DNA from: an uncultured Enterovibrio sp.
GTDB lineage: Bacteria > Pseudomonadota > Gammaproteobacteria > Enterobacterales > Vibrionaceae
Direction of reading: 5' to 3'
Assembly (NCBI GenBank): GCA_947041315.1
Contig: CAMRDW010000009.1
Span: 1-37,623 of the forward strand
DNA length: 37,623 nucleotides
A model generated the notes under the pieces. It saw only the letters and a list, made by a program, of their open reading frames with translations, was not told the DNA's origin and did not search any database. Both the position numbers and the translations under genes were made by a program. Positions within the stretch are counted from its first letter, which is position 1, and each line of letters opens with the position of its first letter. This document shows, one piece after another, positions 1,436-37,615 of the stretch.

Positions 1436-1482
1436 ATGAACAACACAGAACAAGCCACATTTTACTTTATAGATTATGAAAC
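1436..1482 (+). repeat. attL: 47-bp direct repeat with attR; truncated sbcB-like 5' end
   Basis: atgaacaacacagaacaagccacattttactttatagattatgaaac identical to 37569-37615; reads MNNTEQATFYFIDYET then diverges to LTLTL-stop. Confidence 0.9.
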
Positions 1483-1534
1483 CTTAACGCTAACGTTATG
1501 ATTCAACTTACATCTAATTCTAAGCGATAAGAAT

Positions 1535-1554
1535 AAGACGCAAATAAGACGCAA
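1535..1554. promoter_or_regulatory. Putative integrase arm-type sites at the left end
   Basis: Two aagacgcaa repeats 11 bp apart (1535-1543, 1546-1554); a gacgca core also recurs three times near attR. Confidence 0.5.
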
Positions 1555-1591
1555 AACCACCTAAAAATACGAGTGTAGACAGGTATCGTCT

Positions 1592-2287
1592 TTAAAGGTG
1601 ACAGGTAAGCAGTGACGCATCATCAATCACCATTGAAAATGAGTCTTGAAACAACGCCTCGGCAACAGCGGATATCATTACAGAAGAACGCAACTCTCCA
1701 ATAAGCTCATCTCTCGAAGAAACACTAAACTTCAACATCAACCGTTCAATTCTTGAACGGGCTGCCTTTTGAGTAATAAAAAATATCCTTGCGGCCTGTG
1801 AAGCGTTATAGCCAAACTTTAGAGCGACAATGATAAGAGCATCAAGGCGACTAAGCTTAAACGCACTAATCTTTGATGTACGCTTTAATTTCAACGTCAT
1901 ATACAACGATTCTTCAGAGTGTAGGATTGATTGTCCCTCAAAAATGATCCCTATTAATTTCTTATTAAAAAATAATGGCCTTTTCGAGAAGCAAAATGCC
2001 TGACCCCGAGAGAAATCAATTGTTTTTATTTGAATTTTGTTTTTTATGATATGAGAAATTTGTGCTTTGTATTGCTGATGAAGATTGGCGTGCAAAGGAA
2101 ATAGAAATTTCGCTGTTGTATTGATAATTATTGGATTTCTATTTAGATCAAAAATGATGTGTGCTGATTCAGATCCCGCAACATAGCAACCAATAGCATG
2201 AAAATAGAGATCTATGCATTCACCATTATTCGACTCATGTCTCAATTTGGCCCAGTTTCGAGGCAGTCTGCCCCTGTGATCAGCCAT
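1592..2287 (-). CDS. LuxR-like HTH transcriptional regulator
   Basis: 231 aa ORF; C-terminal LSRLDALIIVALKFGYNASQAARIFFITQKAARSRIERLMLKF resembles a LuxR-type HTH. Confidence 0.55.
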   Translation of the reverse strand: MADHRGRLPRNWAKLRHESNNGECIDLYFHAIGCYVAGSESAHIIFDLNRNPIIINTTAKFLFPLHANLHQQYKAQISHIIKNKIQIKTIDFSRGQAFCFSKRPLFFNKKLIGIIFEGQSILHSEESLYMTLKLKRTSKISAFKLSRLDALIIVALKFGYNASQAARIFFITQKAARSRIERLMLKFSVSSRDELIGELRSSVMISAVAEALFQDSFSMVIDDASLLTCHL

Positions 2288-2334
2288 TTCATTGATTTAA
2301 CATTCCTTTGATGATTGAAAAATAAGAAATTAAT

Positions 2335-2526
2335 ATGAAGCACAACTCAACTCAAGCTTGCGCATTACATCAAATATCTAGCGCATTACTTCTGGTTTTA
2401 GATCAGATGGATAAAAATACATTTGAATACGACACTATCGAACTCATAGCTACATACGCTGGAGATCAAGCAAATAAAGCTACTATAAACAAAAAAAAAT
2501 CACTTGTGAAAAACTGTGATAAATAG
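2335..2526 (+). CDS. Small hypothetical protein, divergent from the LuxR-like gene
   Basis: 63 aa ORF, followed by a hairpin at 2544-2565. Confidence 0.4.
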   Translation: MKHNSTQACALHQISSALLLVLDQMDKNTFEYDTIELIATYAGDQANKATINKKKSLVKNCDK

Positions 2527-2530
2527 CGTG

Positions 2531-2565
2531 CATATCAAAAAAAAAAGCGTTACGGATAACGCTTT
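2531..2565 (-). terminator. Rho-independent terminator (minus strand), leader-distal to array 2
   Basis: AAAGCGTTA cgga TAACGCTTT, 9-bp stem; on the minus strand the stem is followed by a long T run (+ strand aaaaaaaaaa). Confidence 0.65.
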
Positions 2566-2890
2566 AGACTTAAAATCCACACCTGCTGGTGATGACCAAG
2601 ATGACTGAAAAATTTTTATTTCACGCGAGTGTGACTCGTTTGTTTGTGACAAGGTCCAGGAAGGACCCAGTCATAAATCTCACATATGCGCATATAAAAG
2701 AATAAGCATTAACGCATATATAAGCCACCAAATAGGATTAAGGGACAACATCAATGGTGACAAAGGATGAAGACGATTTTAGTGGCTCAAAACTTTATAT
2801 GTAGAAACGGATAATTTGAAACGTGTTTTCGAAGATTTTGAAGGAAAAACAAAAAAAGAGACCGCATAAATTGAAACATATTTTTTTGTT

Positions 2891-4179
2891 TAAACCCAAT
2901 AACTACGTGGCGGTGAACTCCATATCCGGTTCCTGTGTTGGGATTAGCTGTTTCTAAGCCGCCTGCGTGGCGGTGAACTTTAAAAAAAATTACGGGGATA
3001 TGAAAATAGATTTCTAAGCCGCCTGCGTGGCGGTGAACAAATCAGCTTGCTGGCGTTGCATAGCAGTATTTTTCTAAGCCGCCTGCGTGGCGGTGAACAT
3101 TATTCTTGAAAATCAAAATCATGCTTTGCTTTTCTAAGCCGCCTGCGTGGCGGTGAACGCATGAGAATGGATGATTGCATGGAATCAAACTTTCTAAGCC
3201 GCCTGCGTGGCGGTGAACATTCTGATTTAATAAAAAGGTACGGTAATAGCTTTCTAAGCCGCCTGCGTGGCGGTGAACTGGAACGAATGGTATAGAGACC
3301 AAAACCTACATTTCTAAGCCGCCTGCGTGGCGGTGAACACGCTAATACAGCCCCTTAAAATCTTACTAAGTTTCTAAGCCGCCTGCGTGGCGGTGAACAC
3401 CCCATCACCCCACCATCACCCAGAAATACATTTCTAAGCCGCCTGCGTGGCGGTGAACCTTTTCGCTCTGCACATGTCACCGAGGAACGATTTCTAAGCC
3501 GCCTGCGTGGCGGTGAACGGATATATGCTTATTGAAATCATATTTGTACTTTTCTAAGCCGCCTGCGTGGCGGTGAACAAATTGATTAGCAAAATCAAAG
3601 AGTACAGAAATTTCTAAGCCGCCTGCGTGGCGGTGAACCAGTAGAGCTTTAAATTTTGCGCCGGTCATTATTTCTAAGCCGCCTGCGTGGCGGTGAACAT
3701 CATCATTGCGTTCATTGATCGCACCTCTAATTTCTAAGCCGCCTGCGTGGCGGTGAACTGAAGAAAAGAAGAAATTAGACCCTTCCTTTAGTTTCTAAGC
3801 CGCCTGCGTGGCGGTGAACTTATTGATCATAAAATGCATTTCTTTTTTTATTTTCTAAGCCGCCTGCGTGGCGGTGAACCCTCTGATTAAGTTAAAACAC
3901 TATAATTGAAATTTCTAAGCCGCCTGCGTGGCGGTGAACAGTAAGACCCAAAAAAACATACAGAGATGTTTTTTCTAAGCCGCCTGCGTGGCGGTGAACG
4001 TTTTCCCGTTTTTTGATAAAGCACCAAAAGCTTTCTAAGCCGCCTGCGTGGCGGTGAACTCAGTTTCGTTAACCGATCAGCTTTTTCAGATTTTCTAAGC
4101 CGCCTGCGTGGCGGTGAACAAGCGCACAATTACAGAAACTCGTTTCAGTCATTTCTAAGCCGCCTGCGTGGCGGTGAAC
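2891..4179 (-). CRISPR. Type I-F-like CRISPR array 2 (21 intact repeats plus a degenerate distal repeat; 21 spacers)
   Basis: Repeat tttctaagccgcctgcgtggcggtgaac (minus: GTTCACCGCCACGCAGGCGGCTTAGAAA) every 60 bp from 2951 to 3731, then 3792 to 4152; one 33-bp spacer (3759-3791); degenerate repeat 2891-2918. Confidence 0.97.
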
Positions 4180-4335
4180 TATAAATTCTGAAGCAAAAAG
4201 CCGCTAATAGCAAGGGATGCCCCCTTAAAACCTTCTTTTCACCTTGTAAAAAACAGGACCTCATAAGCGATTGTTTATTAAGGGAATTATTTTCAATCAA
4301 AATAAGAAGGTCTAAACAAGGGTAAAAATAAACAT
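4180..4335 (-). promoter_or_regulatory. CRISPR leader of array 2
   Basis: Shares aattctgaagcaa, aatagcaagggat, gattgtttattaagg and aaacaagggtaaaa with the array 1 leader. Confidence 0.65.
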
Positions 4336-4422
4336 TGTGGATTTTCAGATAGGGAGAAATCGTCTTAAGACACTATGTGACAGTGAATCCTCATTTGAGG
4401 TTTAAATAAAGGAAATGGCTTT

Positions 4423-4450
4423 TTTCTAATCTACCTACGCGGCAGTTACG
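4423..4450 (-). other. Solitary divergent I-F-like CRISPR repeat unit
   Basis: tttctaatctacctacgcggcagttacg; 19/28 identity to the array 2 repeat. Minus strand CGTAACTGCCGCGTAGGTAGATTAGAAA keeps a CTGCC/GGTAG stem and TTAGAAA 3' end. Confidence 0.5.
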
Positions 4451-4590
4451 GACAGCATTCTGTTAACACTCGAATAGATGAACTATACAAAAAAGAACGA
4501 ACCAATGAAAATAAACCGCATAACATGAGAATTGATCTTTTCCCAAATTATACGGCGGCATTTCCCATTCCAACCACCCGCTTATAGTTC

Positions 4591-4680
4591 TAACTGATGG
4601 ATAAACCAATAAAGTTTTTGCCTTCATCATCATCCTAACTGATGGATAAACCAATAAAGTTTTTGCCTTTATCATCATCC
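4591..4680. repeat. Two tandem 45-bp repeats
   Basis: taactgatggataaaccaataaagtttttgcctt(c/t)atcatcatcc at 4591 and 4636. Confidence 0.85.
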
Positions 4681-4744
4681 TCTTTGATTTATTCAGAAAA
4701 AAGCGCAACGTGATGATATTAAATAGAAATACAGGGAATTGAAA

Positions 4745-5998
4745 TTAGAGCGAGACAGGTGTGAGACAGCTTGACCAGCGCGATTTTAAGTGCAAATGAT
4801 AGTCATTTATCGCTGTTTTCTTAAGATCTTCGATGTGTGAATGCATATAAACTTGATCAAGCTTGTCTTTTGCATGATTCAATAAAGATTCACAAATAAT
4901 GTAATCAATGCCAATTTCTAACCACACTGATTTGGCTCTCTTTCGTAAATCATGGGCTGACCATTCCCTTTTTGAGACCTGTCTCACCCATTGGCTCGCA
5001 AGAGATCCATAAGCCGGCTTATTTTGATGAAAAGAGATTGGAAAGACATAATCCCCCGAATAGCCTTTTGATTTTTGCCAGTTCCGGTAAGAAAGAAGCA
5101 AGGCGGCCATTGGATCGGAAAGAGGGTAAATCATCTCTACGCCTGATTTTGTGTCAGTAGATGGAATAACCCAATGATTTAAGCTGAATGAGATGTTCTT
5201 CCATTTTGCTTTTCTTGTTTCGCCGATTCTTGCACCGTGACCAAGGAGCATCAAAACAAGCATGCGAATTTTAGGCGGTTGTTTTGCGCAATCTTCAAGA
5301 ATGCCTTTGATTTGTTCGCTATTAACTCGGCACCCTCGCACTTGAGCCTTTGTTAAACTGAAATTGTCAGGGAAAAAGTTTTTAAATTTAATCTCCGAAA
5401 GCGGGTTCGATGTGATGTGTTTTAAACGCTTGGCGCTCGAAAATGCGGCTTTTAGTAGACTGAATAAAGCTTTCACGTAGCTGACTGAATACCCTTCATT
5501 AAACATCTCTTGCACCAGGTTCTCGTCAATAATTTCATGGTTGAGGGTTTCGACAGGTTCACCATGGAAAATCCCGATTAAGTGGCGGTTGGACATACTG
5601 CGAAGATTATTCAACCTTTCTTTGCTTGAGTTTTTCTTTTTCACTTCACGAAGTACATGCCACTCAATCAATTGATCGACAGTCTCAAATCGATTGCAGC
5701 TCACCGCTTTATCTTGTGCGATAGTGATCGTAGCGGCGCTCACTAATGACATTATGTCTTTTGCTGATGTCGCAGGGTAAGTGCCAATACGATACGGATA
5801 TTGTTTTCCTCCCTCATAACGATAAAACCACCATGTGCCCGCGCTTCTTTTTGCGTTAAATCGTAAATAAAGGGAGGTTCGCACGTCTTTTAGTTGTCGA
5901 ACTCTTTGATCGCGTAAGTGCTTTTCGATTTGAGCGTCAGAAATCTTAAGGCTAATCGTCGATGCAAAAAACACGCCTTGGTTAAAGGATACTTTCAT
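4745..5998 (-). CDS. Tyrosine recombinase/phage integrase (second, internal copy)
   Basis: 417 aa; motifs HGARIGETRKAKW, HDLRKRAKSVW, LLNHAKDKLDQVYMHSH; N-terminal arm-type DNA-binding domain-like. Confidence 0.88.
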   Translation of the reverse strand: MKVSFNQGVFFASTISLKISDAQIEKHLRDQRVRQLKDVRTSLYLRFNAKRSAGTWWFYRYEGGKQYPYRIGTYPATSAKDIMSLVSAATITIAQDKAVSCNRFETVDQLIEWHVLREVKKKNSSKERLNNLRSMSNRHLIGIFHGEPVETLNHEIIDENLVQEMFNEGYSVSYVKALFSLLKAAFSSAKRLKHITSNPLSEIKFKNFFPDNFSLTKAQVRGCRVNSEQIKGILEDCAKQPPKIRMLVLMLLGHGARIGETRKAKWKNISFSLNHWVIPSTDTKSGVEMIYPLSDPMAALLLSYRNWQKSKGYSGDYVFPISFHQNKPAYGSLASQWVRQVSKREWSAHDLRKRAKSVWLEIGIDYIICESLLNHAKDKLDQVYMHSHIEDLKKTAINDYHLHLKSRWSSCLTPVSL

Positions 5999-6972
5999 TC
6001 TTCAACGACCAACGTTGCAGAGATGCTCATGCTACTTGCTTGTTGCCCTTGCCCCGAAAAACTCACTTTATCGATGCTGCACATCCCTTCTACAAGTTTT
6101 GGAAATGATGCGTCGAAATGAATCAATCCTTCAGCAAATACCTTGGGATTGATGGGGGCCGTTATCGTCAATTTACGCCCTTCTCGCTTTATTTTTCGAA
6201 GCTCAGCGGCGCATGCTTGCTCTGCCTCTTCTTTTGAGTTCTTGTCTTGTCGCAAAGGCTTGAAGGGATCTTCACCGCGCTGCACTTCTTGCCTCACACC
6301 GGTATCTTTTGAAATCCAGAATGCGCGGACGCCATTAAATTCAAAGCGACCATCAAGATCACCTGTTACATTCACAAAATCAGACGAGAGGGGTGAATTA
6401 TAAGCGGGAAGTGACAGGGTCACGGTTTCAATGGCCTGACCCGAGGCGGCTTTTGACATGCCCTTGGGGGCAAAGATAAATTTATCATCAACGGGCTTTG
6501 CGACTGCATCGAATTGCTTTGCCATTCTTCTTAAAAATGCTTGAACAGTTTCATCTGTTCTGTCGATGTGTTTAATGACGATATTTTTTAAAAGGGGGTG
6601 AATAACAGGAATAAAACCGTGTGGCGTAACGCAATCAGAAACAATTTTGCTTATTGTTGCATCGCTCCAGGAGAAGCTTTTTCTTGCTCGAAACTCAGTC
6701 TTATCATTCACTGAAAAGGGGGCGACAGTTAAAACAAGCGTGATCGTTCTTGGTTGCAATGAGAAAGAACGTCTTGATATTTGAAATTCACCGCGATCAA
6801 CCCCACAAAGGAAGGCCGTATATTTTTCGCCTTTGGGCGGCAGACCATCAATATCATCTGAATTGATCGTTAATGTCAGTGAATCCCCATCTAAGCCGCT
6901 GCTGTCTTCTAGCGACCAGCGGGTAAGCCGCGCATGAATAAGATCTGCGTTTTTACCTGTAATTTTCAACAT
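5995..6972 (-). CDS. Phage late control protein D-like (P2 gpD family)
   Basis: 325 aa; position after U and X; DSLTLTINSDDIDGLPPKGEKYTAFLCGVDRGEFQI. Confidence 0.82.
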   Translation of the reverse strand: MLKITGKNADLIHARLTRWSLEDSSGLDGDSLTLTINSDDIDGLPPKGEKYTAFLCGVDRGEFQISRRSFSLQPRTITLVLTVAPFSVNDKTEFRARKSFSWSDATISKIVSDCVTPHGFIPVIHPLLKNIVIKHIDRTDETVQAFLRRMAKQFDAVAKPVDDKFIFAPKGMSKAASGQAIETVTLSLPAYNSPLSSDFVNVTGDLDGRFEFNGVRAFWISKDTGVRQEVQRGEDPFKPLRQDKNSKEEAEQACAAELRKIKREGRKLTITAPINPKVFAEGLIHFDASFPKLVEGMCSIDKVSFSGQGQQASSMSISATLVVEE

Positions 6973-6975
6973 GGT

Positions 6976-7179
6976 TTAATCCCAACTCCGAATAATTTTT
7001 GTAGTATTTTTTTGGTGCGTCACTTTAGGCAATGTCACAAAAGTGTCTTCAAGAAAAACCGCGCTTCGAACGTGCGTGTTTAATGCATAAAAGGCGCGCT
7101 CTGTTCCATCATCATCTTCACCGATGTTTTTAAATAAAAAATCTGTGATTAGATCCCCCTTCTTCGCTTTAATCTTCAT
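6976..7179 (-). CDS. Phage tail protein X (P2-like)
   Basis: MKIKAKKGDLITDFLFKN...; between U and D, start overlapping the end of U. Confidence 0.65.
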   Translation of the reverse strand: MKIKAKKGDLITDFLFKNIGEDDDGTERAFYALNTHVRSAVFLEDTFVTLPKVTHQKNTTKIIRSWD

Positions 7180-7540
7180 TGCGATATTCCATAAGCTGAA
7201 AGCTGACATCCGTCACCATAGCGTGCCCATTATGGATCATTTCAGAACGCCCCTCCGTTAAGGCTTGAATTGTCCATTTTCCGAGATTGCGCCCTTCCCC
7301 GTCGCTCACTTGCTGCGGCTCTGGCATCAATGCGCGCAATTTATCGACACTCACCGCCGCGCCGCTTTGGATCCATTTTGCGGAGAGATCTATTTTCTCC
7401 AGAGCTCGCCCGGTTCTTTCTGATCGCGCACCATTTAACAAAGGCGTCTCCGAATAAACACCAGCACTCACACGGTTAAATTTTGAAAGCGGGGTTTTCT
7501 TTTCAACGCTAAACACAAACTCACCAATGATCATGTGCAT
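7169..7540 (-). CDS. Phage tail protein U (P2-like)
   Basis: MHMIIGEFVFSVEKKTPLSKFNR...GRNLGKWTIQALTEGRSEMIHNGHAMVTDVSFQLMEY; AGAGGAAA upstream of ATG. Confidence 0.75.
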   Translation of the reverse strand: MHMIIGEFVFSVEKKTPLSKFNRVSAGVYSETPLLNGARSERTGRALEKIDLSAKWIQSGAAVSVDKLRALMPEPQQVSDGEGRNLGKWTIQALTEGRSEMIHNGHAMVTDVSFQLMEYRNED

Positions 7541-7565
7541 AAGATTTCCTCTAATTTTAAGCAAA

Positions 7566-7592
7566 AAAAAAGGCCGCAATAAATGCGACCCT
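7566..7592 (-). terminator. Terminator after the Rha-like gene
   Basis: Minus strand ggtcgcatttattgcggcc followed by a long T run. Confidence 0.55.
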
Positions 7593-7612
7593 TGGATAGT
7601 TCACTGAAATGT

Positions 7613-8215
7613 TTAAAGAAGCTTTTTTACCTTGCGGGCGGATTCTGCAAAACCCACTAATTTCTGTGCGGCCACATCAATAATGCGTTTATAGTCTTCT
7701 ATTGAAAAATAGCCAGGTTCTTTGATTACCTGGTGAATTTCGGAAGGTGCAAACACAATACTATTTTGCGGAACTAATGTAGTGCTCACAACTTGACCAT
7801 GTTCCATTGCAATAAGAATACGCATTCTTGTCGCTTGAAGTGTGTTTGTGGTTTTTTCGCTTTGTATTCCAGAAGATGCCTTTGCAACTAGCTCTGAAAG
7901 TTCATTAAACTTATATATAAAAGCTTCTTTAATCGCTGCCGCTTTCTTTCCAGTAAAGCCCATCACAATGAACATAAAGCCATCTTTTGTTATTTCGTAT
8001 AAAGGCAAATTACGGCCTGTATTATCACGATATTCACTGGGCTGAAAATTGAGCTCAGTGAATTCAGCTGAACATTGAAGCGCTTCAATTTTCTGAATAA
8101 CGTTTTTGTGAAGCTTTCCGAATGCCTCGGCAATTTTGAGAGAATTGGTTTTAGGTTCGCCGTTTTGACTTGTGATTGCATCTAAGGGAAGAAGATGAAG
8201 AATTTTATTGATCAT
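7613..8215 (-). CDS. Rha family phage regulatory protein
   Basis: NSLKIAEAFGKLHKNVIQKIEAL...YEITKDGFMFIVMGFTGKKAAAIKEAFIYKFNEL; AGGAG before ATG at 8215. Confidence 0.82.
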   Translation of the reverse strand: MINKILHLLPLDAITSQNGEPKTNSLKIAEAFGKLHKNVIQKIEALQCSAEFTELNFQPSEYRDNTGRNLPLYEITKDGFMFIVMGFTGKKAAAIKEAFIYKFNELSELVAKASSGIQSEKTTNTLQATRMRILIAMEHGQVVSTTLVPQNSIVFAPSEIHQVIKEPGYFSIEDYKRIIDVAAQKLVGFAESARKVKKLL

Positions 8216-8237
8216 GATGAGCTCCTGTAATGATCTT

Positions 8238-8541
8238 TTAATCACCACACAGAGGTGTCAATCTGCTGGGTGGCGAACTGAACAAGGTTGACACTACCGC
8301 TACAGGAACGGCCAGCTTACGCTGCCTCGCCCAGCCCACCATAGATTCAGATGTGCTAAAGCTTACGCATAAAAAATCCAGCAACAAAGCTGACGACAAT
8401 GCGCCTGTAATCGTTCGGGGTGTCAATCCCGGCACCAGATTTTGCCAGTGCAAGCGCAGAATATGTTGAAACTGATACAAGGTCAATGTTTTTTGCGTTA
8501 CTCGTAACGCGCTTAAAAAGCATCAATTTAATCGATATCAA
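8238..8541 (-). other. Ash-family-like coding remnant spread over two frames
   Basis: Frame 1 STYSALALAKSGAGIDTPNDYRRIVVSFVAGFFMRKL, then frame 2 ...SMVGWARQRKLAVPVAVVSTLFSS, resembling phage Ash proteins. Confidence 0.35.
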
Positions 8542-11047
8542 TGCCAGATGTAGCCAATCGAGTAGAGATGGTATTAGCGCCCATAATACGAGGATATTGC
8601 TGATTCATTTGCGTGATGACCTGCTGCGCTATAGAAACCTCATCCATGCCCTGTGACGGGTTTACCGTAATGACGGGCGCAAAATTAACGGGTGCCATTG
8701 TATACGAGTCATTTTTAATTTGTTCCGCTTGCGCGATTTTCACTTCAATCATGTCATTCGTAGCAATTTTATTTGCAGCATGCTCACCCATTTTTTCTCC
8801 GGCATAGCTTCCGACCATTGACCCAATAAAACCGCCGACAGATGTTCCTATTCCAGGCAAAATAAACGTGCCTATTGCAGCACCAATCGACGTGCCAAGC
8901 ACGGATCCACTGAGATCACCCAACGCCCCACCAGCCGCTACCGTATCCTCGCTTTTGATTGCAGCTGCGAGCGTAACACCCGCAGTTAATATGCCTAGAG
9001 GTTTTAATATTTTCCCAAGCATTCCGCCACTACCGTGCATTCCTCCCCTGTCATTATCCCCACCACCACCGCGCATTCCTCCCCTTGCGCTCCTCTCATT
9101 ATCCCCACCACCACCGCGCGTTCCTCCTCTTCCGCCCCTCTCATTATCCCCGCCACCATCACGCATTCCTCTTCGCAGGTTTCGAAGGCGATTTCTGTCA
9201 AGCGTATTTCCAAGAAGAAGCCCTGCCGCCGATGTCGCCATAATAATTGCTTTTAACGCAATGAATGCAGCAATCCCCCCCCCAAGAGCTCCCGTAATAT
9301 CTTTGTTTTCTTCAACAAGTTCTCTTAACCCATCAACAAAATTACCTAAAGGGGGCAAAACAGCATTGAGGACCGGTAACATTGAATCACCAACCACGAT
9401 TGATAGGTTTGTTAATTTAGTTGTAAATGTTGACCATTCAATCTGAGATGTTGCTATCCGTGTTCGAAATTCATGCTCAATAGATGCAAGATGTATCTTG
9501 TCTCCCTGACGCGCAAATTTAAGCGTTTTTTCAAGGTTGGCGGTGTTATTCGCTAGCGATGCAACCGCCCCTTTAACTTCTTCACCGAAAATGCTACTGA
9601 TCAGCGCAGATTGATCTTCTTCATCAGCTTCTTTGATTGCTTCAAGCACATAGGTTAACGTGCCACTCGCATCAGTTTGCATGTCTGCGCTAATGTCCTC
9701 TGCATTTAAACCAATATGTGCATAAGACAGTTTTTGAGCGCGCGTTGCCGCAAACCCCGCAGACAATCGCCCGCTAATGTTTTTTAATGCAGTAGCAGAA
9801 CGCTCTTCGCCCATTCCGTTTGATAAAAGAGATGCGACAAGTGCAGTGGCCTCTTCGATGGAAAATCCAGAAGATAATGCGCTCGATCCTTCCCTTGCCA
9901 TCACTGCCGCAATGTCTTTCGCATACGCGCCCGAATTATTTGATAAGTGATTCGCGAGGCCTGAAAGAGTTCGGGCGCTATCTTGGGTTAGACCCATTGA
10001 CGATTTAAAGATCGCCATCGTCTCACCCGCTGTCGCTGCATCAATATCAAATGCAACACCCATCTTCACTGAATCGGTAACAAAGGCTTTTAGCTCATCG
10101 ATATCCTTGATCCCGCTTTGCGCGCCACTGGCCAGCATTGAATTCACGTCCGTTGCGCTCATTCCCGCGCCAGCCTTGCTTGCAGAGAAATTTAAAGACC
10201 AGCTCTTTAGCTCTTCAAGTTGCTTGGGTGTTGAATCGAGCACTTTGGCGACATTGGCAAAAGAAGACTCGTTTTCCATACCCCTTGCAATTGAACCAAC
10301 AAGTGGCATCGCTTGCATTGCAAGGCCGCCTGCGTCCCCCGCAAGTTGTCCTAGACCTTGCTGACGAGTATCAATGCGGCTTTGGACGGTTTGCATCTCT
10401 TGAAGTCGGCGCGTTTGTTGCGCTAATCGCTCAGATGCACGTTCAGCGATTTGAGCCAATCGTGCCTGTTCCGACGCAAGCTCACGTGTTTCAACACCGG
10501 TTCTTCGAAGTTCACTCCGCAAAGCCCGCGCACGAGCTATTTGCGCCGCTTTTCGGCTTGTTAACGTTTCAACAGAGCGTCCCGCCCTTGCATGCGCCGC
10601 GCCAAGCCCAAGGAGCGCGGTTCTTCCTTCATCTGCTTCTTGATTCAAGCTTGAAAGCCTACGCTCAGCAAGCGCTAATTTTTCACGTAAATCAGATGCG
10701 CCGTCTTCCCCCGCCTCTTCCATTGCAGCGTTAAGGCGCGAGATTTCGCGCTGTGTTGCTTTGGTTTCATTTCGAAGCGCTTTGTTCTTATCTTTTTGAG
10801 ATTCAATCTCACGCCCGAGCTCTTGGTGTTTTGTTTTAGATTTATCTAATTGATCGCCCAGGCGCGCGATGCTTTTGCGCGTTTTATCAAAAGAATCTGC
10901 TTTTTTAACCTGCGCGTTAAGCTCGCGAAATGCCTGACGGCTTTCTTCTGTTTCTCTCGTTAGACGCTCTGTTGCTGCCGTGGCGGAACGAATATTTCCT
11001 AGGCCATTAACGGCGGCATCAATAGCGAAACGAATTCTTTCACTCAT
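8528..11047 (-). CDS. Phage tail tape measure protein (P2 T-like)
   Basis: 839 aa; coiled-coil N-terminus, TP901-like central region (SFANVAKVLDSTPKQLEELKSWSLNFSAS...), transmembrane/Gly-rich C-terminus. Confidence 0.92.
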   Translation of the reverse strand: MSERIRFAIDAAVNGLGNIRSATAATERLTRETEESRQAFRELNAQVKKADSFDKTRKSIARLGDQLDKSKTKHQELGREIESQKDKNKALRNETKATQREISRLNAAMEEAGEDGASDLREKLALAERRLSSLNQEADEGRTALLGLGAAHARAGRSVETLTSRKAAQIARARALRSELRRTGVETRELASEQARLAQIAERASERLAQQTRRLQEMQTVQSRIDTRQQGLGQLAGDAGGLAMQAMPLVGSIARGMENESSFANVAKVLDSTPKQLEELKSWSLNFSASKAGAGMSATDVNSMLASGAQSGIKDIDELKAFVTDSVKMGVAFDIDAATAGETMAIFKSSMGLTQDSARTLSGLANHLSNNSGAYAKDIAAVMAREGSSALSSGFSIEEATALVASLLSNGMGEERSATALKNISGRLSAGFAATRAQKLSYAHIGLNAEDISADMQTDASGTLTYVLEAIKEADEEDQSALISSIFGEEVKGAVASLANNTANLEKTLKFARQGDKIHLASIEHEFRTRIATSQIEWSTFTTKLTNLSIVVGDSMLPVLNAVLPPLGNFVDGLRELVEENKDITGALGGGIAAFIALKAIIMATSAAGLLLGNTLDRNRLRNLRRGMRDGGGDNERGGRGGTRGGGGDNERSARGGMRGGGGDNDRGGMHGSGGMLGKILKPLGILTAGVTLAAAIKSEDTVAAGGALGDLSGSVLGTSIGAAIGTFILPGIGTSVGGFIGSMVGSYAGEKMGEHAANKIATNDMIEVKIAQAEQIKNDSYTMAPVNFAPVITVNPSQGMDEVSIAQQVITQMNQQYPRIMGANTISTRLATSGIDID
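9052..9180. repeat. 45-bp in-frame tandem repeats in the tape measure gene (about 3 copies)
   Basis: cattatccccRccaccaYc... restarts at 9052, 9097, 9142; encodes RGGxRGGGGDNE-like units. Confidence 0.8.
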
Positions 11048-11750
11048 TTTTTAACCCCTAGTTTTGCAAGGATCAAGCTGTATCGGCGCAATGCATCATC
11101 TTGTTTCCAGCTGCGCACTTCTGCTTCAGATGTATTACGATACATAGGAATGAGATCAATCAGCGCTTCGCAGTCGCTTTGGGAAAGAAAGCCGCCGATT
11201 GCGTAAAAAAATTGCTCACCTGTGGCTTTATAGCCAAATAATCATTCATGGCCATCAAATCGAGATCTTGTTTTTCAAGATTGCAAACCACGCGAAACAT
11301 AAATTCTTCTCGCTCGATTGGATCCAAGATCCCCGCTAACTTTTCGCAATGTCCCACCGTTGGCACTTGGAACCGAATGCGCGTAAATTCCTCGTCTATT
11401 TCATTTTTAAAGGTGAACAACAACTCAAAGGAATACGTTTCACCATTAATCTCATGCCCCGTCAGGAGATTACTTGGTGTGTTAATAAAAACCTGAATGT
11501 CAGACCCCAGCTGATTGAAATCAGGCGCGCGAAAATTTCCAAATTCTTCAATGGAGATATCAGTACATTCAAAAATCGCAGCTTTATATTGAGCAAATGT
11601 TTCAAGCTCTGAGATTTCGTCTTTTTTAATAAATGGCAATTTATTGAATGCACCGAATGTAATGGGCTTAATGACGATCTCATGAGAACCCCCTCTCCCA
11701 AAAAATGGCAAGGTTGACGTTCTTTTGGTTTCTGATTTTGATTCTTTCAT
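11044..11750 (-). CDS. P2-like E/E' tail chaperone pair by programmed -1 frameshift (E = 11160-11750)
   Basis: E frame AAT TTT TTT ACG; the -1 frame continues YAIGGFLSQSDCEALIDLIPMYRNTSEAEVRSWKQDDALRRYSLILAKLGVKK-stop, ending in ATGA overlap with the tape measure start. Slippery T_TTT_TTT at 11205-11211. Confidence 0.75.
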
Positions 11751-11766
11751 TTTATTTTTCCCATAA

Positions 11767-11786
11767 AAAAAGGGGCAAAAGCCCCA
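11767..11786 (-). terminator. Rho-independent terminator (minus)
   Basis: Minus strand GGGGC tttt GCCCC TTTTTTT. Confidence 0.65.
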
Positions 11787-11805
11787 TTAAAATATTTTCC
11801 TGCAA

Positions 11806-11928
11806 TTAGAAGAATGAAATCAGATACAAAACCGCTTCAATTGCAGCCCATCCAATCACCATTATGATTAAAGAAAAGATAAAAAGATGTGAGCGCCAAT
11901 TTTCAGGAATTAAATCTCTATCAAACAT
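11806..11928 (-). CDS. Small single-pass membrane protein, 40 aa
   Basis: MFDRDLIPENWRSHLFIFSLIIMVIGWAAIEAVLYLISFF; start overlaps the tail-tube stop (TAATG). Confidence 0.5.
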   Translation of the reverse strand: MFDRDLIPENWRSHLFIFSLIIMVIGWAAIEAVLYLISFF

Positions 11929-12416
11929 TAAAGGATCCCCGCTTGCCCCATTAAATTCTCTCCAAAAATAATGGTTTTACCTGTATCAATATTAATGTCA
12001 TGAATGACGCGGCCTGTATCCGTCATTTTGTACGCCTTGCAGGTGCCTTCAATCGTTACAGAAGGCTTTTCACCCATTTTATAAGCATCTTTTTTTACGC
12101 TTTTAATGATCGCATAGAGAGAATGCTCTTCAACGTAAATAAGCCCTTCTGTATTTTTCCCACGCTCCATGACATTAAGCTGCCCTGGTCTCATTAAAAA
12201 TTTTCCAAAGGCGACAGACAAACCACCATGATCACCACGCAATTTAAGCGTGAAGGAAAGCTTTTCAAGAGCAACGGCATCTTCACTGCCCACAAACGAT
12301 CCTTCAGATTCTGACATTTTGAACGTGATTTCTGGGGGCATAAATTCACTGATTTCATTCATTAAAGGAATGCTTTCTAGCATTGCCGTCAATCGAATTC
12401 TAATCCTGTCAGCCAT
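11928..12416 (-). CDS. Phage major tail tube protein (FII-like)
   Basis: 162 aa, downstream of the sheath gene; PEITFKMSESEGSFVGSEDAVALEKLSFTLKLRGDHG. Confidence 0.85.
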   Translation of the reverse strand: MADRIRIRLTAMLESIPLMNEISEFMPPEITFKMSESEGSFVGSEDAVALEKLSFTLKLRGDHGGLSVAFGKFLMRPGQLNVMERGKNTEGLIYVEEHSLYAIIKSVKKDAYKMGEKPSVTIEGTCKAYKMTDTGRVIHDINIDTGKTIIFGENLMGQAGIL

Positions 12417-13797: not shown

Positions 13798-13839
13798 TAT
13801 TTGTCACTCAAAAAAACAAAGCTAAACGAATTTTCATTT

Positions 13840-18047: not shown

Positions 18048-18059
18048 GTGCCTCTATTT

Positions 18060-26674: not shown

Positions 26675-26828
26675 AAAATTCAGGCATAAAAAAACCACCC
26701 GAAGGCGGCGTGGAAAAACACTATCATCATATCGCTTACTTATGCATTAATGGGGTGCGAGCCCAACCTCATCCCTGCCTATATGGCCTCGTGCGGGAAC
26801 ACCTTTTATTTACATTGGGACTAAAACG

Positions 26829-28104: not shown

Positions 28105-28692
28105 CTATAACGCGTTTATTATTTTGGCTAGAGTTGAAAATTTTGCCGCAACGCTGCCACTCTGAACGCCACGACCAAGAAAGGCCGCTTTAGGAATTTG
28201 TGCCGATGCAGGTATCACAACTGGAAGCAAATTCATATGAGAGAGACCGTCAACCAGCTCCTTCATGACATCAAATTTTTGGCGTGATGGATGTACACGA
28301 TTTATAACCACATGGGCAACCATACGTCGTTTATTTTTTACGGATAAAAAGGCTAACACTTCATTAAAAGCAACTAACGCAAATTGATCTTGAGGATCAT
28401 CAGAAGATGGCGTGATTATCACATCAGCAAGCTCAAGGGCGCGGCGCGTGATGTCTGAATCAAAGCCACCACAATCAATAACCGCACATTCTGTTGTTTT
28501 TAAAATGGAGAGATCCAAGGGGGATGCGGGACGGATAATTTTAATTTGGGTATCAGATAGTTGAAGCAGCTTGCTGATACCCATATGAATATCAGCATCA
28601 ACAATGAGAGACGGTGAAAGATGCCCAATAAGATTTAATGCCATCGTGCTCTTACCCGCACCGCCTTTTTCATTTGCAATTACAGTTTTCAT
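28105..28692 (-). CDS. parA: ParA-family partition ATPase
   Basis: NEKGGAGKSTMALNLIGHL deviant Walker A; VIDCGGFDSDITRRALELADVIITPSSDD. Confidence 0.88.
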   Translation of the reverse strand: MKTVIANEKGGAGKSTMALNLIGHLSPSLIVDADIHMGISKLLQLSDTQIKIIRPASPLDLSILKTTECAVIDCGGFDSDITRRALELADVIITPSSDDPQDQFALVAFNEVLAFLSVKNKRRMVAHVVINRVHPSRQKFDVMKELVDGLSHMNLLPVVIPASAQIPKAAFLGRGVQSGSVAAKFSTLAKIINAL

Positions 28693-29858: not shown

Positions 29859-31217
29859 TCAGGTCATCAGGTAGATTGCTTTTATCGCATCAATTACGAT
29901 TTTAAGTCTTTGCTCTTTTTGTACTGTAGGATGTTGGATGGGATAGAAACTTCTAATCTGTGAATCCCAATACTTTTTCTGTTCATCTTCATGGCATACA
30001 AAATGTTGATTGTTGTGTTTGCACTCGGGTCCAAGTATGACTGTTATTATATCGAGGACAGATGGCTCAGTCTCTCCATCATTAAACACAGGTAAATTAT
30101 CGAGACCAAGAAAGTGACCTAGCTCTTTTGCATCCAGCTCTTCACGCAATGCTGCATTTGCTAAATTCGGCTTACAACTTACGAGCAATATTCCTACCAA
30201 GCTTAATAAGCTGACAATCAACCCATAACCATTTAATCTCGATTCTTTATCTGAAAGGGTTTGATAAATCTCAATGTGACGAGCGAGTGTTTCTACTTCT
30301 CGCAAAGAAAGATGATTTATTTTGATGACCTGTTTAACCAGATCAAAAAAATGAACTCGATTCAGGGGAAGATCCTTCAGCGTTTCACTTTTATTAAGCA
30401 ACTTTTTATAATGAAAAACAGAAGCCGAAACACTTTCACCCCCGCTCTCATTCTTCGTACTTGGCAGAGTGAAAGTGAATTTAAGAAATTTATCTAGATA
30501 GCGCTGGGCGTCAATCGTTCGACCATAGCAGTGATTAATTGATGCTTTGAGCTGATCGGTATTTGTGATTAAGACAAACTGTAGCCCTTCGATATCAAAG
30601 GTGTGCTTAACCGTTTCAAGCATCAAGACTGCAAAGTCAGGACGGCAACGATCAAGCTCATCCATAAACAAAATCATCGGCTTCTCATGAGCAATACTTT
30701 TTAATGCCCCCTGCAATGCCTGTAAGTTTTTTTCTGCTTTAGCATGATCTTTTAAAAGCGATTCAATAGATGCATCAATGGCTTTATCAGTCACTTGCTT
30801 AATCTCTTTTTCGAGATTTTCTGCTACTGAATCAACATCTTGACGTAAAAGATGAGAAACGAGGGCTTTTCCTCCAACTTTTAAACCGTACCGCAATGCT
30901 GGCATCGCTTTTTTAATCAGGGTTCTTTGTTTATTTTCAGGCAGAACGGCCAAAACGTTAGTGAGCACAGTAAGCAAAGGTTCATCAGCGTGATCAGCTT
31001 TGAATGCATCGATATAGATAAGATGGTGAGTATCTTCAATCTTCATTAGATTGATCATTTTTAGGCAAAATTCTGTCTTACCCAATCCCCATGAACCATC
31101 CACGACAAGCGGCGAAACGGATATGTCCGAGCGAAGAAGTTTAATTGCTTTTTCAGCGATGCTTTTTCGATTAAATTCATCACGTCCTTCAAACGTGATG
31201 TCAGTGTCCAGCGCCAT
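29859..31217 (-). CDS. KAP family P-loop NTPase
   Basis: DGSWGLGKTEFCLKMI Walker A; PMILFMDELDRCRPDFAVLMLETVKHTFDIEGLQFVLITN. Confidence 0.87.
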   Translation of the reverse strand: MALDTDITFEGRDEFNRKSIAEKAIKLLRSDISVSPLVVDGSWGLGKTEFCLKMINLMKIEDTHHLIYIDAFKADHADEPLLTVLTNVLAVLPENKQRTLIKKAMPALRYGLKVGGKALVSHLLRQDVDSVAENLEKEIKQVTDKAIDASIESLLKDHAKAEKNLQALQGALKSIAHEKPMILFMDELDRCRPDFAVLMLETVKHTFDIEGLQFVLITNTDQLKASINHCYGRTIDAQRYLDKFLKFTFTLPSTKNESGGESVSASVFHYKKLLNKSETLKDLPLNRVHFFDLVKQVIKINHLSLREVETLARHIEIYQTLSDKESRLNGYGLIVSLLSLVGILLVSCKPNLANAALREELDAKELGHFLGLDNLPVFNDGETEPSVLDIITVILGPECKHNNQHFVCHEDEQKKYWDSQIRSFYPIQHPTVQKEQRLKIVIDAIKAIYLMT

Positions 31218-31855: not shown

Positions 31856-31864
31856 TTACAGCTC

Positions 31865-31995: not shown

Positions 31996-32075
31996 GAATT
32001 TGATATAACAGCATATCAACGCCCCTACCACGCAAGCATGAGCCTGTGAGAGCGTAAATTCATGCCTGCGTGGGG
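31996..32075. repeat. Partial copy of the 171-bp repeat family
   Basis: gatttgatataac..catatcaa....ccacgcaagcatgagcctgtgagagcgtaaattcatgc shared with 32815-33330. Confidence 0.7.
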
Positions 32076-32107
32076 ATGGAACAGTAAGAACCGATCATCT
32101 GGTTGCA

Positions 32108-32435
32108 TTTCTAAGCCGCCTGCGTGGCGGTGAACATGCGCTAGATCATGCAGGTATACCGCGGAGATTTCTAAGCCGCCTGCGTGGCGGTGAACTTTGG
32201 TATATCAAAAACTGCGTGGAGAAAATGTTTCTAAGCCGCCTGCGTGGCGGTGAACTCTCGCTTGATACACTAGCGAAAAGCACAAGCTTTCTAAGCCGCC
32301 TGCGTGGCGGTGAACAGACATTATTTTATGGCAATATTTCTTTTGCTTTTCTAAGCCGCCTGCGTGGCGGTGAAGCCGTTTAGGTAAAAAACCAAGCGGT
32401 GAACAGTTTTCTAAGCCGCCTGCGTGGCGGTGAAC
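32108..32435 (-). CRISPR. Type I-F-like CRISPR array 3 (6 repeats, 5 spacers)
   Basis: Same 28-bp repeat as array 2 at 32108, 32168, 32228, 32288, 32348 (last base changed), 32408. Confidence 0.95.
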
Positions 32436-32580
32436 CGGAGATTTTGAAGAAAGAAGAGCGTGATAGCAAGGGATTGATGGCAAAAACCATGTTTTGACCT
32501 TATAAAAGCACAATGACCATAACTAATTGTTTAATAATGGTATTTTTTAGGCTCCAAAAAAGAAGGTCAAAATTAGGCTT
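32436..32580 (-). promoter_or_regulatory. CRISPR leader of array 3 (more diverged)
   Basis: attttgaaga, gtgatagcaagggat, accttataaaa, aattgtttaataa shared with the other leaders. Confidence 0.6.
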
Positions 32581-32814
32581 TCATTTACCTCTTTTATACA
32601 CATCAAATGAGTGCCGCTATGCAATTATGTTGAACAAAAAAACCTAGAGTACGATAAAGCTAAAAATCACACATATTAATTGATGAAATCATATTTTTCA
32701 TCAAGTTATAGTGCGGTAGATGTTTTCTTTCAACAAATGATCGATGGAAAGCGCATCACATTTTCAAATGTTGACCTCCCAGCCAGCCCCTCTTGCAGCG
32801 ATCAAATGTAAATT

Positions 32815-33330
32815 GGTATAACGCCATATCAAAGCTCTAACCACGCAAGCATGAGCCTGTGAGAGCGTAAATTCATGCAATGCGCACCACCTTGCTAAAC
32901 CGCTCTTGCTCTAAATGTAAAAAGAGCCGCCGCTCTTGTATGCCAAGCTGCACGCAGGCCTCTTACCGCTATCCTGGATAGATTTGATATAACGCCATAT
33001 CAAAGCTCTAACCACGCAAGCATGAGCCTGTGAGAGCGTAAATTCATGCAATGCGCACCACCTTGCTAAACCGCTCTTGCTCTAAATGTAAAAAGAGCCG
33101 CCGCTCTTGTATGCCAAGCTGCACGCAGGCCTCTTACCGCTATCCTGGATAGATTTGATATAACACCAAATCAAAGCCCTAACCACGTAAGCATGACGCT
33201 GTGAGAGCGTAAATTCCTGCAATGCGTACCCCCCTGCCAAGCCGCTCTTGCTCTAAATGTAAAAAGAGCCGCCGCTCTTGTATGCCAAGCTGCGCGCAGG
33301 CCTCTTTCAGCTCGATAACTGTTTGGTGTA
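32815..33330. repeat. Three tandem copies of a 171-bp repeat
   Basis: Equivalent points at 32821, 32992, 33163; first two nearly identical, third diverged. Confidence 0.92.
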
Positions 33331-33696: not shown

Positions 33697-34344
33697 TTAA
33701 GTGTGGGGGGTGTCGTGGAGGTTTGTTTTTGCTTCTTCTTGGGCTTGAGCGCGTCTTAGCGCGTCGCGCCTTAACTTGCGATCATCATTGAATTTTATGT
33801 AGCCTAGCCAGAGATTTGACAATTGTTTTTTAATTCGCGACGCTGTTGATTTTTTACGTGAAAATTCAATTGCATTTTTATCATCAACATCCATCAACGC
33901 ATTCAGATCACTAAAAAATAAGGGCGTGAACAATTTATTTGATGCAATTGATCTGATCTGAAGATCCTCATCATCAGAGTCAAAACTGAAAACCCAAGCA
34001 ATGATAGATTTAAAATATTGAGCATCAATCAGCTGAGCGATTGCACGAAACCAACATCCTTTGGTAATTTCATACCCGAGTATTTCAGCTGCGCGTTTAG
34101 TCCGAAGGTGAAAGTGCGTATAGCCATTCATTTCTTCGCGTTCGTGCTTCCCTATCTGATTATTTTCAGCGTCCATCAGAGATAACAGAACCGTTACAAC
34201 GTCGCGCAGTGTTTTACGTTGACGCAATTGCAATGGCTTTTTTGTTGAATGGACCGTATATAAACGACGCAACAACGAAGGACGATTCACAAATTTTGCG
34301 AACGCCTTTGCAGTTAAACGCGCATATACAGTGAGCTTTTTCAT
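33697..34344 (-). CDS. Hypothetical early protein, possible replication-associated protein
   Basis: 215 aa, TAATG-coupled to the cro-like gene. Confidence 0.4.
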   Translation of the reverse strand: MKKLTVYARLTAKAFAKFVNRPSLLRRLYTVHSTKKPLQLRQRKTLRDVVTVLLSLMDAENNQIGKHEREEMNGYTHFHLRTKRAAEILGYEITKGCWFRAIAQLIDAQYFKSIIAWVFSFDSDDEDLQIRSIASNKLFTPLFFSDLNALMDVDDKNAIEFSRKKSTASRIKKQLSNLWLGYIKFNDDRKLRRDALRRAQAQEEAKTNLHDTPHT

Positions 34345-34646
34345 TAAACTTCAACTTCAACCGGATATATATCGGGACGCAAAACTGATTTATTCACTTC
34401 ACCATTTGTTAGTTCATGCAAATGCAGCGTGATTTTAAAACCTGCCTTTTTTTGCCCTCGCATGATCATGCGAAGATAGCCAACGCTGGTTTTAGCTTTC
34501 AAAGCCAGATTTTTCTTCTTCTCAGCTGATAGGGTTTTCCAGTATGTCGAATACACAAGCGCACCTTTTTTGTCTACTTTCTCAAAGTGTACCAATTTAG
34601 TACCTCGGATAGCAACAAAAAAAGCACTCCTTAGATCATGTACCAT
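34344..34646 (-). CDS. Cro-like repressor (true start probably inside the ORF)
   Basis: YWKTLSAEKKKNLALKAKTSVGYLRMIMRGQKKAGFKITLHLHELTNGEVNKSVLRPDIYP; divergent from cI-like gene. Confidence 0.68.
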   Translation of the reverse strand: MVHDLRSAFFVAIRGTKLVHFEKVDKKGALVYSTYWKTLSAEKKKNLALKAKTSVGYLRMIMRGQKKAGFKITLHLHELTNGEVNKSVLRPDIYPVEVEV

Positions 34647-34654
34647 TTTAGTGC
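34589..34654. promoter_or_regulatory. Putative cI/cro operators
   Basis: gtaccaatttagtac (34589-34603) and gtaccattttagtgc (34640-34654) in the divergent region. Confidence 0.55.
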
Positions 34655-34673
34655 GATAATTTATGATGAAATT

Positions 34674-35327
34674 ATGAAAAAAATAGAAGATATCAGATTA
34701 GAAAATGCCAGGTTGCTGATTGATAAATGTGGTTCAATTACTTTCCTTTCGGATAAAATTGATCGTTCAACAACTCAGCTCAGCCGGCTAATGGGAAAAA
34801 ACCCAACAAAAATTATTGGACGTCGATTGTCGCGTCATATAGAGCACTCATTGCGGCTGGAAGATGGATGGATGGATCAAGATAGAAATGCAAGTGTTGT
34901 TTCAGAACAAAATAATAACACTCTTCAAAAAATTGTTATTCATGAATTAACCTATCCATTAATCACTAAAAATCAAGCCGTTAACTGGAGTGAAACTCAT
35001 ACAGATTTAAGCCATTTTAAGCATTTTTCTTGTCCTGTTCCTTGTGGAAAAAAAACATTTCTACTCGAAGTCGACGGGATCAGCATGGAGTCTCAATTTA
35101 AAGCCGGATATTTAATATGGGTAGATCCAGAGAGAGAAGCAATAAATAAAAGCTATGTTGTTGCCTTTCTAAAGAATAAAAACGAAGCTACATTCAAGCA
35201 GATTATCATTGAAGACGGGTTAAAAATGCTCAGAGCAATGAATCGGGACTGGCCGGAGCAATATATACAGATAGATGAGAATTGTGAAATTATAGGAACG
35301 GTTGTTTTTTGCGGGTGGTCTCTTTAG
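34674..35327 (+). CDS. CI-like repressor with S24/LexA-type peptidase domain
   Basis: LEVDGISMESQFKAGYLIWVD...KSYVVAFLKNKNEATFKQI; N-terminal HTH. Confidence 0.82.
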   Translation: MKKIEDIRLENARLLIDKCGSITFLSDKIDRSTTQLSRLMGKNPTKIIGRRLSRHIEHSLRLEDGWMDQDRNASVVSEQNNNTLQKIVIHELTYPLITKNQAVNWSETHTDLSHFKHFSCPVPCGKKTFLLEVDGISMESQFKAGYLIWVDPEREAINKSYVVAFLKNKNEATFKQIIIEDGLKMLRAMNRDWPEQYIQIDENCEIIGTVVFCGWSL

Positions 35328-35418: not shown

Positions 35419-35452
35419 AACGACGCTAATCAATACAATTAGCGTCGTTTTA
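35419..35452. terminator. Terminator after the cI-like gene
   Basis: aacgacgctaat caatac aattagcgtcgtttt. Confidence 0.75.
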
Positions 35453-35728: not shown

Positions 35729-35881
35729 ATGAACAAACAAACTAGAATTCGACATCAATGTAAGATTCGCGCACAACGATTACGCGATAAGCGCAAAGCC
35801 TGTGGAATAACAATATTCCAGCTCTCTATGAATCAAGCTGAAAAAGACAAGCTCAACGAAATTTCACGGGATTACATATGA
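35729..35881 (+). CDS. Small basic protein upstream of the excisionase-like gene
   Basis: MNKQTRIRHQCKIRAQRLRDKRKACGITIFQLSMNQAEKDKLNEISRDYI; ATGA overlap with the next ORF. Confidence 0.55.
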   Translation: MNKQTRIRHQCKIRAQRLRDKRKACGITIFQLSMNQAEKDKLNEISRDYI

Positions 35882-36156
35882 ACGTCTCGTTTACGTACAC
35901 TCCTCCGAAATTTATAAATAGTGCTCAAGAAAAAGAACCGATTATTTTTGACCAAGAACTGTATCCCGAATCATCAAATAAAATAATTTCACACAAGGAA
36001 GTGTTGGCGTTTTTTTCTAAAAAACGAGGAACCATTATTTCATGGCGAAAAACGCGAGGATTTCCTGAGCCAATAAGCAAATCACCTATGCGCTGGATAA
36101 GAGCCGCTGTGATGGAATGGGTTGAATACCAAGGTGGATTCAAAAGAAACAATTAA
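35878..36156 (+). CDS. AlpA/excisionase-like DNA-binding protein
   Basis: ISHKEVLAFFSKKRGTIISWRKTRGFPEPISKSPMRWIRAAVMEWVE. Confidence 0.68.
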   Translation: MNVSFTYTPPKFINSAQEKEPIIFDQELYPESSNKIISHKEVLAFFSKKRGTIISWRKTRGFPEPISKSPMRWIRAAVMEWVEYQGGFKRNN

Positions 36157-36168
36157 TCACGATAAAAA

Positions 36169-36200
36169 GCGACATTTTTGTTTTTGTAATAAAATGTCGC
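36169..36200. terminator. Bidirectional terminator between xis-like and int genes
   Basis: gcgacatttt...aaaatgtcgc. Confidence 0.7.
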
Positions 36201-36208
36201 GCCCTCTC

Positions 36209-37387
36209 TTATTTTCCTTCTAGCGTCTTTTCAATCTGCAAAAACAATGCATCTCCGAAAGTCTCATACGCAATTTGTTGTTCCACAATCCAATCATGCT
36301 TGTTATATACACGCATGACACCTACAAGTTCATGTCCCAGCATACGCTCAGTCACATGCGGCATCGCACCTTGCTCGGAACAAATCGTAGAAATACTGCG
36401 CCTAAAATCATGGGTGCGCCAGTGCGGTAACGCCAATGTGTCACGTAATCGTCGTATATATCGATTAGCCGCCGAAATGGTGATAGGCCGATGAAGTGAA
36501 GCGCCTGGAAATAAATAATCATCATAAATATTCATCAAGCGTAAAAGCAGCGGTTTGATCTGCTTTGTTATCGGTCGTCGAATAACATTCCCCATCTTTG
36601 TGTTCTCAGCCGGTACAATCCAAATATCATTTTTCATATCAAAGTGGATTTTCTGAGCCAACCTGAGTTCAGAAAGACGATTTCCCCACAGTATAGTTAA
36701 AAGATGCAGATTTTTAGTTGACGTTCCAGCGCGACTTCTTTCGATGGCGATCCAAATCTCCGCCAGCTCATTTACAGATAAAACGCGCGTCCCTTCATCC
36801 GCTGATGTACCAACATCTCGTTGACGTATTTTTTCAATGTTCGTCCCGTCAATCAAGAATTTTGACTTGCAAAAATTCAGGCAAGCCCGTAACTTCGAAA
36901 ATGCAGCTTGTGCAGTTTTGGGAGATGTTTTCGCGATACCATCAAACCAGGACATCCATTCGCGTGCAGAGATCGTTTCAACATTCATATCATGAAAAGC
37001 TGGATAGTAGTAATTTTTAGAAAACGACGCGTATATGTCTTGTGTTCCTGGCTTTTGATACTTCACCTTCTCTTCTCGCCAAAAATCAATGCAGTTCGCT
37101 AACGTGATAAAATCAGTTTCGCCAGTTACGGCGATTTGAGGGTTTCGACCGGCGTCTTTCAATTCCATCATTCGTTGATGTATTTGTCGAGCTTGCTTTA
37201 AACTGACGCAGGGATATCGGCCAATTTTGTACCGTTTATTTTCACCGTTAAATCTGCATCGATATTGAAATGTAATTCGCCCTTTCGGAGAAATCTTTGC
37301 AATCAGGCCACCACCATCATTTAACTCAGATGCTCCCGAATATTCTTTATTGGATATTGCGTTCAATGTTCTATTTATCAGACTCAA
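36209..37387 (-). CDS. int: Tyrosine recombinase/integrase of the element
   Basis: 392 aa; LNDGGGLIAKISPKGRITFQYRCRFNGENKRYKIGRYPCVSLKQAR arm-binding; GNRLSELRLA, HDFRRSISTICSEQG, LGHELVGVMRVYNKHD. Confidence 0.93.
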   Translation of the reverse strand: MSLINRTLNAISNKEYSGASELNDGGGLIAKISPKGRITFQYRCRFNGENKRYKIGRYPCVSLKQARQIHQRMMELKDAGRNPQIAVTGETDFITLANCIDFWREEKVKYQKPGTQDIYASFSKNYYYPAFHDMNVETISAREWMSWFDGIAKTSPKTAQAAFSKLRACLNFCKSKFLIDGTNIEKIRQRDVGTSADEGTRVLSVNELAEIWIAIERSRAGTSTKNLHLLTILWGNRLSELRLAQKIHFDMKNDIWIVPAENTKMGNVIRRPITKQIKPLLLRLMNIYDDYLFPGASLHRPITISAANRYIRRLRDTLALPHWRTHDFRRSISTICSEQGAMPHVTERMLGHELVGVMRVYNKHDWIVEQQIAYETFGDALFLQIEKTLEGK

Positions 37388-37408
37388 AATTTACACTCAA
37401 AAAATTAG

Positions 37409-37450
37409 GACGCAACACACCTTACAAATAGACGCAGAATTAGACGCAAC
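37409..37450. promoter_or_regulatory. Putative integrase arm-type sites at the right end
   Basis: gacgca cores at 37409, 37431, 37443, matching those at 1535-1554. Confidence 0.5.
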
Positions 37451-37568
37451 TCAAAATGTAAAACATGCAACAACACTAAAAATTAACTTTCAAAAAAGAA
37501 CAATTATATCCATCAACCAACTGATACTAAAGGGCTAAGAAAAAAAGCCCGAACAAAAGATGACAAAT

Positions 37569-37615
37569 ATGAACAACACAGAACAAGCCACATTTTACTT
37601 TATAGATTATGAAAC
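37569..37615 (+). repeat. attR: 47-bp direct repeat with attL
   Basis: Identical to 1436-1482. Confidence 0.9.

Follow-up and report, generated by a model that had tools for sequence, protein, structure and literature searches.

A tailed-phage prophage at the 5' end of sbcB carries type I-F CRISPR arrays in an uncultured Enterovibrio

What kind of element lies between two identical repeats at the start of a conserved gene, which recombinase placed it there, and what became of the gene? These questions were addressed in a 37,623-nucleotide stretch of an uncultured Enterovibrio sp., called here the window, which is the entire contig C9 of a draft genome (3.69 Mb, 325 contigs). The 47-bp sequence ATGAACAACACAGAACAAGCCACATTTTACTTTATAGATTATGAAAC is found exactly at positions 1436-1482 and 37569-37615 of the + strand, in copies 36,133 bp apart that bound an element of 36.1 kb. 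The repeat is preceded by CCC at the left copy and by AAT at the right copy, and is followed by C and A, respectively. Such an exact direct repeat of 47 bp within 37.6 kb is far beyond chance. The left copy provides 21 codons, MNNTEQATFYFIDYETLTLTL, and is then closed by a stop codon, and the final 55 bases of the window are identical to positions 1-55 of contig C14, of which positions 1-1425 form a complete sbcB gene (474 codons) encoding exonuclease I (ExoI). The right copy (attR core, assigned by contig overlap) is therefore the true start of the gene, which runs on in C14, and the left copy (attL core, assigned by the sequence repeat and by alignment to an empty site) is a displaced fragment of the sbcB 5' end. 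The initial annotation had proposed that the left copy frames out and that the right one continues as ExoI, and the full 474-aa protein of C14 bears this out. It should be noted that the element boundaries were read from a draft assembly, in which attR sits at a contig end.

The empty site was found in a sister species of the same genus (G014), whose sbcB carries no insert. When the left flank of the window was joined to sbcB at the core, the resulting sequence aligned with that of G014 from approximately 400 bp upstream, across the joint and into the gene, and the sbcB DNA was 96% identical over its first 400 bp. The proposal of a complete integrative element of about 36.1 kb with identical 47-bp ends is thus supported both by the exactness of the repeat and by this empty site. 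Two repeat copies in relatives with nothing between them, named beforehand as the contrary case, were not seen; the sbcB 5' end of G014 is single and uninterrupted. Among 29 other sbcB loci of relatives, seven (L053, L057, L069, L070, L072, L073 and L080) have an integrase or an integrase remnant adjoining the gene, and the site is therefore one that is used repeatedly within the family. Regarding the 55-base overlap, contigs C172 and C174 likewise share an exact 55-base end, which indicates that the assembly breaks at branch points and leaves overlaps of this length. The 55-mer common to C9 and C14 begins precisely at the divergence point of attR and attB. A minority of excised chromosomes would produce a branch of this kind at the core boundary, a hint that is only suggestive because the left junction is unbroken in the assembly.

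The gene content of the element identifies it as a tailed-phage prophage, a more exact description than integrative element. An S24-peptidase phage repressor of the CI/LexA type (34638-35327, + strand; PF00717, E=7e-19) is followed, on the - strand, by a Cro/repressor-like regulator (34344-34646; phrog_35, E=1e-4), a KAP P-loop NTPase of the candidate defence family PDC-S20 in the early region (29859-31217; PADLOC, E=2e-174), a ParA-like ATPase (28105-28692; PF01656, E=5e-10) and the lysis genes (25906-26698; lysozyme 25906-26442, holin 26420-26698). Further left on the same strand are the terminase genes (23323-25861; PF05876/PF20454 for the pair), composed of the large subunit GpA (23323-25407) and a DUF1441 protein at the usual place of the small subunit (25388-25861), a portal protein of the lambda family (21655-23124; PF05136, E=1e-60), a head protease/capsid fusion (19655-21655; PF00574, PF25209) and a P2-type contractile tail operon (5995-19285) encoding gpU, gpX, gpD, tape measure, tube, sheath, fibre, gpI, gpJ and baseplate proteins. 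The head is thus of lambda type and the tail of the contractile P2 type. Terminase, portal, capsid, tail and lysis genes are all present in phage order, as in Caudoviricetes, and an integrase, a repressor, attL/attR bounds and an empty site in a relative are present, as for a temperate phage. The sequence itself establishes the element boundaries, the existence of an empty site, an intact sbcB and the phage gene set.

The order of the head and tail genes, including that of the tail operon, matches that of the Vibrio cyclitrophicus phage PQ189354, and is also common to Vibrio phages 10N.286.54.F2_PE001 and Va_PF430-3_p42, whose terminases are 71-72% identical to that of the prophage; the closest phage match of the large terminase is that of 10N.286.54.F2_PE001, at 72%. 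In 10N.286.54.F2_PE001 an annotated recombinase closes the tail operon, as it does here. By contrast, the early region and the cargo of these two phages differ from those of the prophage, and CRISPR repeats of the prophage type were found in neither. The early region of the prophage also holds a 171-bp unit in three tandem copies (32813-33325), and a related piece of 68 bp lies at 31998-32065.

Two tyrosine recombinases are encoded by the prophage. The integrase at the right end (36209-37387, - strand; Pfam Arm-DNA-bind_3 and Phage_integrase, E=1.6e-16 and 3e-15) belongs to the sbcB-site family and begins 181 bp away from the start codon of sbcB. Beside it, an excisionase-like small regulator (35878-36156, + strand) matches phrog_33798, of unknown function (E=6e-41), and phrog_66 (E=2e-4), which is labelled 'excisionase and transcriptional regulator'; an integrase and an xis-like gene had indeed been predicted next to the right copy. 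The small gene is presumably the excisionase of the adjacent integrase, which is itself predicted to be active. The other tyrosine recombinase (4745-5998, - strand; PF00589, E=1e-17), near the left end and passed over in the initial annotation, is encoded by the gene that closes the tail operon and overlaps the end of gpD. Most of the related prophages retrieved from Vibrionaceae likewise have a recombinase in this final position after gpX-gpD.

We conclude that the element is almost certainly the 36.1-kb prophage of a temperate tailed phage, whose integrase (36209-37387) recombined attP with the 5' end of the chromosomal sbcB; the analysis found no evidence against this reading. The phage attP would have carried the first 47 bp of sbcB and recombined, through this integrase, with the identical chromosomal sequence, leaving a dead 5' fragment at attL and an intact, rebuilt sbcB frame at attR. 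Phage DNA now precedes sbcB in place of the native upstream region, and the crossover segment overlaps the codons of a conserved exonuclease motif (F-x-D-Y-E), the sbcB product being unchanged. The phage is probably able to leave the chromosome.

A non-phage integrative element, either an island or a conjugative element, could also carry cargo such as the ParA-like ATPase, the candidate defence ATPase and the CRISPR arrays described below; this reading is barely tenable in view of head, tail, lysis and repressor genes that are complete and in phage order, and Pfam scans of the main ORFs detected no conjugation genes. It is also very improbable that the left-hand recombinase, rather than the right-hand one, integrates at sbcB. 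Its gene lies 3.3 kb from attL and closes the tail operon right after gpD in most related prophages, and in phage PQ189354 the integrase is a separate gene at the opposite end; in favour of such a role, a degraded relative of this recombinase adjoins sbcB in one genome (G022, L070). The right-hand integrase lies 181 bp from attR and its relatives adjoin sbcB. Because of this position and these relatives, integration at sbcB is most likely catalysed by the adjacent right-hand integrase.

A further alternative concerns the fate of the gene, which integration might silence or weaken rather than preserve, since the native upstream DNA is displaced and a simple scan of the new upstream region found no sigma-70 promoter. 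We regard this outcome as unlikely: integration restores the full reading frame together with its start codon, and the same scan of the native upstream region was equally without a promoter, which makes it uninformative for sbcB. As far as can be read from the DNA, the prophage has rebuilt sbcB rather than broken it, the upstream DNA alone being exchanged and the product kept, and the gene is probably still expressed in the lysogen.

The first reading thus stood with respect to the element, its att ends and the sbcB target. It had also held that the 5' end of a protein gene is an uncommon target for tyrosine integrases, and this part did not survive comparison with published sites. For phages Sf101 and 2851, the published integration site is likewise the 5' end of sbcB, and its 13-bp core is CGTAATCGTGAAA (PMC4159516). 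SXT/R391 elements use a tyrosine recombinase at the 5' end of prfC, their attP and attB being nearly identical (PMC2791158). Reverse-complementing CGTAATCGTGAAA gives the TTTCACGATTACG of E. coli sbcB (L020), whose codons align with TTTATAGATTATG in the 47-bp core (the same F-x-D-Y-E codons); on this alignment the crossover segment falls in the F-x-D-Y-E codons of sbcB, as in the sbcB-site family. The integrases of Sf101 and of the prophage are 46% identical over 98% of their length (E=7e-110). Sf101 and 2851, which are lambdoid (related integrases also occur in mEp234/HK544), share with the prophage a homologous integrase, the gene and its 5' codons, and in their annotated records a small regulator adjoins the integrase, as here. 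They differ in their phage body (Sf101 is a lambdoid phage with an Sf6-like genome architecture; PMC4159516), in a published core of 13 bp compared to 47 bp in the prophage, and in their enteric hosts. Like the prophage, SXT/R391 elements employ a tyrosine recombinase and enter a conserved protein gene at its 5' end, but they are conjugative and their body is unrelated.

The relatives of the integrase were then scanned in named genomes, yielding 35 related loci. In 27 of them the integrase starts 135-228 bp, mostly 176-184 bp, from the sbcB start codon. The hosts belong to several gammaproteobacterial families and include Vibrio, Photobacterium, many enterobacteria, Pseudoalteromonas, Alteromonas and others. 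In a phylogenetic tree, the prophage integrase falls inside a supported group (100/99) with three sbcB-adjacent integrases of Vibrionaceae, from which its closest named relatives come. Five integrases of the 35 (L022, L024, L025, L039 and L044) are instead neighbours of a tRNA-Arg(CCT) gene, which lies at a distance of about 190 bp with its 5' end towards the integrase; in the tree they group, with full support, in a single branch among the integrases that use sbcB. This branch appears to have switched its target from sbcB, a direction that we infer because the tree is rooted at its midpoint. An sbcB-like 5' fragment adjoins the integrase at one further locus (L026), and the same codons are shortly duplicated in a Serratia element of about 40.5 kb; no far-end duplication of the sbcB codons was found in Vibrio albus. 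Given the Sf101/2851 site, this integrase-family scan and SXT/R391 at prfC, the claim that sbcB is a rare and notable integration site is weak, as the site is already known, and the present finding adds one Vibrionaceae prophage to it. What the scan brings out is the breadth of its use: members of one integrase family are found beside an intact sbcB in Vibrionaceae, enterobacteria, Pseudoalteromonas, Alteromonas and their relatives.

The element is in this respect an ordinary sbcB-site prophage, and its CRISPR cargo is more interesting than its insertion site. Three type I-F arrays, two in the element and one in the left flank, had escaped the initial annotation. Array A1 (2892-4330, - strand) has 22 repeats, the first of them degenerate, and 21 spacers, with a leader at approximately 4180-4330; array A2 (32108-32577, - strand) has 6 repeats and 5 spacers, with a leader at approximately 32436-32577. 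Both leaders measure about 150 bp. The third array, of three repeats, lies in the chromosomal flank to the left of attL (728-875, leader to about 1020). As array and leader DNA is also present upstream of sbcB in G014, this array is probably chromosomal and older than the prophage. None of the G014 arrays checked for location lay in a relative of the prophage.

No cas genes were detected among the ORFs scanned in the prophage. Its host carries two I-F cas loci, on contigs C172 and C174 (cas3, csy1, csy2 and csy3). Genome-wide Pfam searches for Cas1 and Csy4 gave no matches, and the idea of a cas-less host was dropped when Csy3 and the NCBIfam Cas1 model revealed these two loci. Both contigs start inside cas1 and end just past csy3, so that cas1 and csy4 of the host probably lie in unresolved repeats. 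A1 and A2, with leaders and repeats, no cas genes in the element and cas genes of the same type in the host, are therefore cas-less virus-borne arrays. Such arrays are known from the mini-CRISPR arrays of Sulfolobales viruses, which have a leader and match the cas genes of the host (PMC6858448). These resemble A1 and A2 in combining leader and array without cas in a virus genome, but hold 1-2 spacers, whereas A1 holds 21 and belongs to a bacterial tailed prophage. V. cholerae and V. metoecus have also been reported to carry an I-F array associated with a prophage, in that case alongside genes of type III-B (PMC6360697).

A second phage-like contig of the same genome, C12 (34.5 kb; L087, L048), encodes a lambda-type portal and a contractile-tail sheath and carries an array whose leader is near-identical to a prophage array leader. 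Its two ends match the window at 2583-4579 and 4635-4788; C12 may be circular, because these two matches border on neighbouring positions of the window (4579 and 4635). A1 and A2 may be transcribed or used in the lysogen; if functional, this CRISPR cargo would be the bacterial equivalent, on a larger scale, of the mini-arrays of 1-2 spacers in archaeal viruses. We tentatively suggest, as a possibility that we would not yet call probable, that the arrays of the prophage and of C12 borrow both I-F cas systems of the host for processing, for the acquisition of new spacers and for attack on other viruses, which would provide the lysogen with a mobile adaptive superinfection-exclusion device.

In searches of phage records and loci, no spacer convincingly targeted a rival tailed phage, and a gokushovirus-type match alone stands out. 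The A1 spacer at 3279-3310 agrees at 29 of 32 bases (E=0.1) with the gene for the major capsid protein of many gokushoviruses (Microviridae), in frame with the motif W-N-E-W-Y/F-R-D. In the two gokushovirus records read, the bases beside the match are not GG, the motif expected next to the target of a type I-F system. A 24-nt match to large Vibrio phages is at chance level. An exact match to the CRISPR repeat was not found in viral contigs. Beyond the A1 leader, a lone degenerate I-F repeat is present at 4427-4454; solitary phage repeats can act as RNA anti-CRISPRs (PMC11656645).
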